Shown: positions 43,341 to 45,812 of the stretch, one piece after another | Layout of the letters: every line of letters starts with the position of its first letter | Numbering within the stretch: the stretch's first letter is position 1 | Assembly: GCA_028293285.1 (NCBI GenBank) | Contig: JAQGPC010000295.1 | Location: 1 to 64,000, forward strand | Source of the DNA: Pedosphaera sp. | Lineage (GTDB): Bacteria; Verrucomicrobiota; Verrucomicrobiia; Limisphaerales; Pedosphaeraceae | Direction: 5' to 3' | Length of the DNA stretch: 64,000 nt | Notes under the pieces: generated by a model | The model's input: the letters and a program-made list of their open reading frames with translations, nothing else | What the model was told of the DNA's origin: nothing | Databases searched by the model: none | Program-made: the position numbers and the translations under genes

Positions 43341-44597
43341 CTATCCGCGACAGAACTTCTCGAAAGCGCCGCCGAAGAGTTCTTTGACGTCGCGTTCGAC
43401 TTCCGCAGGGGAGGTTTGCCAGCCGGTTTGTCCCAGTTCCGTGTATTTCTCCACCAGGATATTTGAGATGACGCGGCGGCTGTGCTGCCATTTGTAAACG
43501 ATCTGGTCGAGCACGCGGGCGTCGGAATGCTGCGGCGTGAAGCTGGGGCCAAGCAATTCAATGCGCATGCGGGTGATCTCGTCGATGAGAGAAGGGATAT
43601 TGGTAAACCACCAGCAGCCGAAGATATGCAGGTTGCGAAACTTACGGGCGAGGATGCACAGCTCGTGTTGGTTCTCGCGGGCAAGAACAGTAGCGAGAAA
43701 CTTGTTTTGCGGAAATTGAGCGCAAAGATTTTGCAGCGTGTTGAGATCGCTCAGGCCAACGCCATCACCGGCCAATTTTAATTGAGGATTAACGGCGCGT
43801 TTGACGCCCGGCATCAGCGCGAAGGGCAGGTTATGCTCGCGGCAATGCGGCAACACGGCGTGCTCGATTAAGTTTGCGGAAACGGTATTCGCAGGAAACG
43901 CGAAATCAGGCGGCAACGAAACCATCAGGTATTTGGCATCAATGCGTTTGGACCAGTCCGCCAGAAAGCGGCGGATTTCGCTATAGGTTTTGCTCCCGGG
44001 ATTTACTTCCACGCTGTAACCCCATTGTGCGAGCTTGGGAGCAGTTTCCGGCCAGTTCAGAATGAGCGGATCAATGCGGAGCGCGGCAGTAAACCGTTCG
44101 TCACGGTGAAAGCCTTTTTCCCAGACTGGACGTTCAAGGTCATCGAATGGGGAATTGGTCATGCAGATGTTACGCACACCGGCAAGTTCCATGCATTGAG
44201 TAATGTGCTGTTCCACAGTTCGGCCAGCGAACCATTGGCGCAAAGCAGGCAGATCACGTTTCTTTACATCGAGTCCAAGCGCATGCAGCGTGGTCAGGAC
44301 GCCGCGACAAGCTTCCGAGATGGGCGAGTGTTCGATGAAAAGGGTATTCCAAATGAGGTCAGCTTGTTCGGTCTTGGAGAGCGACCAAAACTTATCGTAG
44401 GAAACATCATGGAGACGGAAGGACTCGGCCACGAGATAATGATAGATGAGCAAATCATCAATGCCCCAGAGCAGGAGTTCGCCAAAAACAGGTTCGTAAA
44501 GATGCGTATGGATGTCGTAAATGGGAGTGGACGCGACAATCTCTTCAACTTGGGCTGCAAACGGTACCCGGCTGGCTTCAGACAAAATCGATTTCAT
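43341..44597 (-). CDS. Amidohydrolase-superfamily protein (glucuronate-isomerase-like)
   Basis: IYDIHTHLYEPVFGELLLWGIDDLLIYHYLVAE; TNSPFDDLERP; C-terminal FGCWWFTNIPSLIDEITRMRIELLG. Confidence 0.8.
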   Translation of the reverse strand: MKSILSEASRVPFAAQVEEIVASTPIYDIHTHLYEPVFGELLLWGIDDLLIYHYLVAESFRLHDVSYDKFWSLSKTEQADLIWNTLFIEHSPISEACRGVLTTLHALGLDVKKRDLPALRQWFAGRTVEQHITQCMELAGVRNICMTNSPFDDLERPVWEKGFHRDERFTAALRIDPLILNWPETAPKLAQWGYSVEVNPGSKTYSEIRRFLADWSKRIDAKYLMVSLPPDFAFPANTVSANLIEHAVLPHCREHNLPFALMPGVKRAVNPQLKLAGDGVGLSDLNTLQNLCAQFPQNKFLATVLARENQHELCILARKFRNLHIFGCWWFTNIPSLIDEITRMRIELLGPSFTPQHSDARVLDQIVYKWQHSRRVISNILVEKYTELGQTGWQTSPAEVERDVKELFGGAFEKFCRG

Positions 44598-44655
44598 CGG
44601 ATGGCGAGGTTAAGAAAGAATTCAACGCACTGCCATAAGAATTTAGGGTAGTGTC

Positions 44656-44832
44656 CTAATTTGAATTTTTCTTTCTGCGGTCGCTTAACAGCCCATCCAC
44701 ATAAACATAGATTACGACGCAAACGAAGACGGGTATGTAATATCCAAACTTAAGCGTTAAAAAATGAAGGTTATATGAATACACGGCAAACCAAACGCAT
44801 AAAAAAATCCACTGTTTCCAATTCTTTCTCAC
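44656..44832 (-). CDS. 58-aa two-TM passenger peptide of the IS1-like element (not in ORF track)
   Basis: GTG start overlaps the preceding TGA (GTGA): VRKNWKQWIFLCVWFAVYSYNLHFLTLKFGYYIPVFVCVVIYVYVDGLLSDRRKKNSN*; stop TAG lies inside the TIR. Confidence 0.6.
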   Translation of the reverse strand: MRKNWKQWIFLCVWFAVYSYNLHFLTLKFGYYIPVFVCVVIYVYVDGLLSDRRKKNSN

Positions 44833-45137
44833 TGCTTTCCTTTCACTTCCGCAGCAATTGCAACCTTAACCGCCGATTTTGGTGAGACAACGGGCGGAAT
44901 GTCCAAGACCGCAACAAACCTTTCGTCTGAATCATCCTTGCCAGCCCTGTGCGACCACGCATAGCAACGCGTGGCCTTGGGGTGTCCTCGCAGATCAAAC
45001 ACTTCTACGATGCCATTCCAGATTGTTTTACCCTGAAATACTTCACGCACAGGAACCGATTCAACGTGTGTCGAATCGGCCTTGTGCATGTGAGATATTA
45101 CCAGTTGTAACCGCTCGATATATTCTTTATTCGCCAC
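44829..45137 (-). CDS. ~102-aa passenger protein of the IS1-like element
   Basis: From GTG at 45137: VANKEYIERLQLVISHMHKADSTHVESVPVREVFQGKTIWNGIVEVFDLRGHPKATRCYAWSHRAGKDDSDERFVAVLDIPPVVSPKSAVKVAIAAEVKGKQ; overlaps the transposase 3' end by 11 bp. Confidence 0.65.
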   Translation of the reverse strand: MANKEYIERLQLVISHMHKADSTHVESVPVREVFQGKTIWNGIVEVFDLRGHPKATRCYAWSHRAGKDDSDERFVAVLDIPPVVSPKSAVKVAIAAEVKGKQ

Positions 45138-45785
45138 AATTCTTAACCAGTTCCTCAACCGTCCATTGACTCTTTTCAATGCCAGCAGCCATCGCAGGAG
45201 TGCAACGAATCGTGCTGTGAGTCTTGCACAGATTATAATAAGCAAAATTCATTGCAACCGCAGCCTGAAAGTTTTCCAGCTTCTTACTGAAAGCATTGGT
45301 CAAACGGCTCAAACGGCTCAAGCGGCGGCAATGCATGCGGAGCGTGTGATTCTGCTTCTCAACGTGTGAAGTTGAAACGGGCTATACCGGCTTGCTGCGT
45401 CCTTGTTGAGATTACTGAGGGAGTAGGTTTTTACAATTTGCGCGTAGTCCACTTCACTTCCAAAGCTGCGTTCAATCGCATCAGGATAAGCCTTGAGCGC
45501 ATCAGTGGAATCTGAATGCGGTTAGCCCATGCGACTGGCAAGATCATCCATGAAGGCTTTGGCGTGATAGGAATCACGCTTACCCACCAGAAACGCGGGA
45601 ATCAATTTTGTGTCTGCGTCCAAGGCGATGAAAGTCCACACGTCACCGATTCCGGTAACCATATCTTTAGCCGTGGCGTTTTTCTTTTTCTTGCCGATGA
45701 ATCCCCAAAGCTCATCAACTTCAACTTGCTGGCATTTCACGTTCCTCATTTTCTCATCCATAATCTTGGCGCAACCTAAATTCAA
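45127..45785 (-). pseudogene. IS1-family transposase remnant
   Basis: MRNVKCQQVEVDELWGFIGKKKKN...FIALDADTKLIPAFLVGKRD; a stop in the LKAYPDAIERSFGSEVDYAQIVK region; C-terminal LRMHCRRLSRLSRLTNAFSKKLENFQAAVAMNFAYYNLCKTHSTIRCTPAMAAGIEKSQWTVEEL. N-terminal HTH region missing. Confidence 0.9.
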
Positions 45786-45812
45786 ATTAGGACACTACCG
45801 AATTTAGTAAAG

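Follow-up and report, generated by a model that had tools for sequence, protein, structure and literature searches.

Analysis of a 64,000-nucleotide stretch of Pedosphaera sp. DNA (the window) revealed an element that, on the best explanation taken as a whole, is probably a copy of a compact IS1-related cargo transposon with an internal deletion and a dead transposase (Table 1). We lean slightly towards regarding this element and its relatives as miniature defence transposons related to IS1 that form a hitherto undescribed family with a plug-in expression slot. In such a family, the end of a companion gene would supply a ribosome site and the start overlap, the terminal inverted repeat (TIR) would supply the stop codon, and unrelated short genes would be exchanged exactly between the two. 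A first-pass annotation had described two coupled passenger ORFs, of 102 and 58 aa, inside an IS1-like element. The coordinates of both ORFs held. The GTG start of the 102-aa ORF (45137-44829) overlaps the 3' end of the transposase (45127) by 11 bp, and the GTG of the 58-aa ORF (44832-44656) overlaps the TGA of the 102-aa gene (GTGA). The TAG of the 58-aa ORF (44658-44656) lies inside the 22-bp TIR at 44647-44668, which has a perfect partner at 45778-45799.

Table 1. Features of the element, with positions in the 64,000-nucleotide window
Feature	Position	Strand	Evidence or remark
IS1-type element, internally deleted copy (1153 bp)	44647..45799	(-)	perfect 22-bp TIRs and exact 8-bp target duplication
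Left TIR GGTAGTGTCCTAATTTGAATTT	45778..45799	(-)	22-bp perfect repeat partner
Right TIR AAATTCAAATTAGGACACTACC	44647..44668	(-)	source of the TAG stop codon of the 58-aa ORF
Target duplication CTAAATTC, left side	45800..45807	(-)	exact 8-bp match
Target duplication CTAAATTC, right side	44639..44646	(-)	exact 8-bp match
Transposase remnant, codons 48-182	45369..45773	(-)	tblastn with intact 278-aa relative; in-frame TAA at 45524-45522
Transposase remnant, codons 199-278, different frame	45127..45378	(-)	tblastn with intact 278-aa relative
102-aa core companion protein (gene 2)	44829..45137	(-)	GTG start; Ka/Ks 0.17 versus C119 copy; AlphaFold2 pLDDT 92
Shine-Dalgarno-like AAAGGA	44838..44843	(-)	within 3' end of 102-aa gene, 5 nt before 58-aa GTG
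58-aa hydrophobic ORF, variable end slot occupant	44656..44832	(-)	slot anatomy; no homologue

The transposase in the window is broken: codons 1 to 47 are absent, a TAA interrupts the frame, and a frameshift precedes codon 199. Everything to the left of codon 48 is gone, and the remnant opens at this codon almost immediately past the left repeat. All 15 related genomes searched contained the outer 16 bp of the left TIR, with at most one mismatch. About 50 bp downstream of the insertion, an amidohydrolase-like ORF (window 43341-44597) is positioned in the same orientation, and transcription from the element could reach it.

The assignment of the element as IS1-like stood in part. Intact relatives encode a single-ORF transposase of 275 to 293 aa that matches DDE_Tnp_IS1 (PF03400) with 32.7, 29.4, and 34.7 bits (cut-off, 24.1), which classifies it as an IS1-type DDE transposase, and the 8-bp target duplication in the window falls within the 8 to 9 bp of IS1. 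However, the NCBIfam equivalog model NF033558 was matched with 74.3 bits against a cut-off of 100, which points to a relative of IS1 type and not to a classical IS1. The match begins at position 39 of 199 of the IS1 profile, the N-terminal zinc finger region is missing, and the intact relatives have one ORF of 275 to 293 codons, not the two-ORF frameshift layout of insA/insB. DDE_Tnp_IS1595, named for a family known for passengers, was not among the Pfam matches of three intact transposases. More distant IS1-like transposases (same order; L260, L261, L268, and L272, 37 to 50% identical) lack the 102-aa gene. In L260 and L268, other genes adjoin the transposase and inverted-repeat candidates are present; a pair of CxxC motifs is retained at the N terminus in L268 and L272.

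Comparison of the intact relatives revealed a common order: TIR, variable left cargo, IS1-type transposase, companion of about 100 aa, variable end slot, and TIR. The left cargo often includes a small divergent ribbon-helix-helix (RHH) gene. Complete elements measure 1.9 to 3.7 kb, with a median of 2.7 kb (39 bounded copies with a near-full transposase). An exact target duplication flanks 41 of 48 bounded elements. As judged from the sequence, these duplications indicate that the relatives are true mobile units. In acidobacterial copies, the end slot is mostly occupied by the RHH gene itself; there were 30 RHH-like occupants, and matches to RHH_1 and DUF6290 were weak and below the cut-off. 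In six acidobacterial loci (L076, L078, L103, L114, L123, and L130), a second variable gene separates the transposase from the 102-aa gene. In the Verrucomicrobiota elements L055, L198, L200, L202, and L213, a gene of 120 to 160 aa recurs to the left of the transposase; its product has a coiled-coil-like start and an HTH-like C-terminal part, with a weak HARE-HTH match in L055.

The 102-aa frame is conserved in more than 100 copies. Among about 85,000 species genomes scanned, 140 relatives were found, whose records carry the labels Verrucomicrobiota, Acidobacteriota, Planctomycetota, Myxococcota, and Proteobacteria; plasmid and phage collections contained no relative at an E value of 1e-5. A transposase is located upstream on the same strand in 87 of 118 distinct full-length copies. 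The 102-aa gene directly adjoins 52 of 63 near-full transposases, a sample gathered through the 102-aa gene. The reverse test started from transposase loci and found the gene at all seven that had at least 70% identity and enough downstream sequence (same order). Comparison of the window copy (C81) with a second copy in the same genome (C119) gave a Ka/Ks of 0.17 for this gene (13.0 synonymous and 8.0 non-synonymous differences), and comparison with a G004 copy gave 0.16. By these ratios, the 102-aa gene is under purifying selection. Thus, conservation, dN/dS, and co-occurrence with IS1-type transposases, all proposed as checks in the first-pass annotation, came out in favor of this gene. As judged from its distribution, it belongs to the core of the element, accompanies the transposase across phyla, and is not half of a cargo pair.

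The structure of the 102-aa protein was modelled with AlphaFold2 on 59 sequences, which predicted an alpha-beta4-alpha fold (pLDDT, 92; pTM, 0.84). A Foldseek search of this model against the PDB and viral models revealed nothing at an E value of <0.001, and a profile search of PDB sequences gave one insignificant match. No Pfam or NCBIfam model matched the 102-aa or the 58-aa protein over its curated cut-off. CutA and cystatin-like folds appeared as weak Foldseek matches with TM-scores near 0.3 and were not believed. Because the fold matches nothing known, a DNA-binding role is only a guess. The protein probably assists or regulates transposition, by end binding or transposase control, rather than serving as cargo. 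That it functionally replaces the zinc finger of the transposase is possible but likewise a guess; a constant companion without a known fold beside an IS1-type transposase raises the question of how transposition works in this group when the usual zinc finger is missing.

It is somewhat unlikely that the 102-aa protein was instead acquired from a host and acts as cargo in its own right, for example, in regulation or defence, and not as a transposition factor. Lone chromosomal members without a transposase in Verrucomicrobiota would fit such an origin, as would the more distant IS1-like transposases that manage without the gene, but the gene adjoins the transposase across several phyla in conserved order and is the one unchanging gene after it. 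The diverged lone members, with no transposase or TIR nearby (L230, L232, L234 to L237, L204, and L119), suggest that the protein may have a role apart from transposition. One relative (L088) was found in a metagenome-assembled genome labelled Thaumarchaeota, a label that may be a binning error, and another (L134) in the isolate Methylocystis sp. Sn-Cys.

The end slot, which runs from the stop codon of the 102-aa gene to the right terminal repeat, differs from copy to copy. Four copies in the Pedosphaera genome itself hold four unrelated slot proteins of 58, 43 (lipoprotein-like), 54, and 101 aa. All four start on an NTGA overlap with the companion stop codon and end at the TAG of the TIR. Such spanning from the start to the TIR stop was found in 11 of 27 eligible slots (non-RHH, 90 to 450 bp, intact repeat stop), compared with 0.27 expected from shuffled slots; this full-denominator test took the place of a combined probability (1e-25) calculated post hoc for 12 selected slots. 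A Shine-Dalgarno-like motif within the final codons of the companion precedes the start in 10 of the 11 spanned slots. Some slots, of about 30 bp, hold no gene. The backbones of the window copy and C119 are 92% identical over 546 aligned bp and their right ends agree at 20 of 22 positions, whereas the slot between them is unalignable. The slot occupant is swapped for unrelated genes between otherwise similar copies. The exchange could proceed by recombination between copies or by template switching at the purine-rich ribosome site and the repeat; both routes are guesses.

An all-against-all comparison of the slot proteins revealed only two recurring occupant families, with Ka/Ks values of 0.42 and 0.13 (the second near saturation). 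Homologues of the 101-aa occupant (L280, L281, and L282) are lone genes with no repeat or element genes nearby, and N6/N4 DNA methylases follow the companion gene in L228 and L233. On these two observations, the occupants look like captured genes. Several occupants are 54 to 58 aa long with one or two hydrophobic segments, and they could be taken for versions of a single, fast-evolving homologous membrane protein. This reading is improbable given the range of the other occupants, which include the 43-aa lipoprotein-like ORF, the 101-aa protein, ParB-like 123-aa and 85-aa soluble proteins, and DNA methylases. It also does not account for slots that are unalignable between 92% identical backbones or for relatives of the 101-aa occupant that stand alone outside the element. 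By its sequence layout, the end-slot gene is read from a start that overlaps the companion TGA, with the Shine-Dalgarno-like site in the 3' end of the companion gene. Translational coupling in the slot would allow a single captured gene to be expressed at little cost to the element.

The occupant in the window, the 58-aa ORF, looks like a gene on the anatomy of its slot rather than on conservation of its own. The homologue search proposed for it returned no sequence relative in 97 related genomes. It is predicted to be a slot occupant encoding a hydrophobic membrane peptide, and its two-TM character (P of about 0.11 against a composition null) is near the expectation for a T-rich stretch. Single-sequence AlphaFold gave one continuous helix (pTM, 0.43) that is not interpretable. 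We consider it quite unlikely that the ORF is open only by chance in a decaying element. The missing homologue would agree with chance, and a slot of this length would be open by chance in about 2 to 3% of cases before the phase requirement is applied. Yet the 10 other eligible copies that make up the 11 of 27 (0.27 expected) share its start and stop anatomy, a Shine-Dalgarno-like site is placed ahead of its start, and its frame remains open despite the multiple breaks in the transposase.

The proposal that the element carries cargo was therefore correct for only one of the two ORFs: both look like genes and a non-transposition gene is present, but the 102-aa gene belongs to the core and only the 58-aa ORF is a slot occupant. 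As a cargo pair, the two did not hold up, since in other copies the constant 102-aa gene is followed by an unrelated gene or by none. A toxin-antitoxin-like or soluble-plus-membrane pair that stabilizes the element had also been considered. The overlapping, apparently coupled genes and the small, hydrophobic 58-aa peptide would suit such a pair, and other copies carry toxin-antitoxin-like or toxin-like genes (PIN, Panacea, and RelA_SpoT). Nevertheless, the neighbour of the 102-aa gene is unrelated or missing elsewhere, same-genome copies included, and the gene also stands beside DNA methylases and RHH genes. A gene that stays constant while the next one is replaced or absent is unlikely to have a dedicated toxin-antitoxin relation with it. 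The pair reading is thus largely refuted by non-co-occurrence, and we regard it as very improbable.

In the relatives, non-transposition genes lie between the TIRs and target duplications flank them, as in a cargo-carrying IS-type transposon. A scan of cargo proteins picked by eye revealed known defence or toxin-like families: HEC-06/GmrSD in L220 (HEC-06 E value, 6e-151), AbiU/AIPR in L251 and L203 (AbiU E value, 2e-144), a RelA_SpoT-domain PDC-S33 protein in L098 (PDC-S33 E value, 2e-92), and an SLFN_AlbA_2 protein in L246 that matches a pAgo model (E value, 2e-44). Further cargo comprises SocA_Panacea with a small membrane protein in L213, PIN in L168, NYN in L199, and a Clp-like protease in L198. 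The C119 copy retains its left cargo, a GmrSD_N-HNH protein. This inventory supports, without proving, the view of the family as a compact carrier of defence genes. Hosts would retain elements whose gene is useful to them, often one related to defence or the membrane.

The common view of IS elements is that of selfish units that carry no cargo. The present family transports single defence or membrane genes in packages of 2 to 4 kb across soil and groundwater phyla and may thus be a vehicle for defence genes that has escaped notice. New small defence proteins could readily be sought in the end slot. Searches of the open-access literature found no account of IS1 elements of this kind. With the IS1 family, the elements share a DDE transposase over the Pfam cut-off (in intact relatives), short TIRs, and an 8-bp duplication. 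They differ from it in the single-ORF transposase that lacks the zinc finger region and scores under the NCBIfam cut-off, and in their length of 1.9 to 3.7 kb, which includes cargo and a constant companion gene. IS elements with passenger genes and transporter IS likewise carry cargo genes between IS-type ends; here, the elements belong to the IS1 group, have a constant companion, and hold a slot occupant that overlaps the companion stop and the TIR. The cargo of Tn7-like transposons includes many defence genes (PMC8649781), a trait shared with the present elements. Unlike Tn7, these have no multi-subunit machinery; they span 2 to 4 kb and have a single transposase and a single companion. Integron gene cassettes provide a functional analogy, in that swappable genes are expressed from a fixed platform; unlike in integrons, no integrase was seen among the ORFs listed between the TIRs, the features on which this comparison is based.
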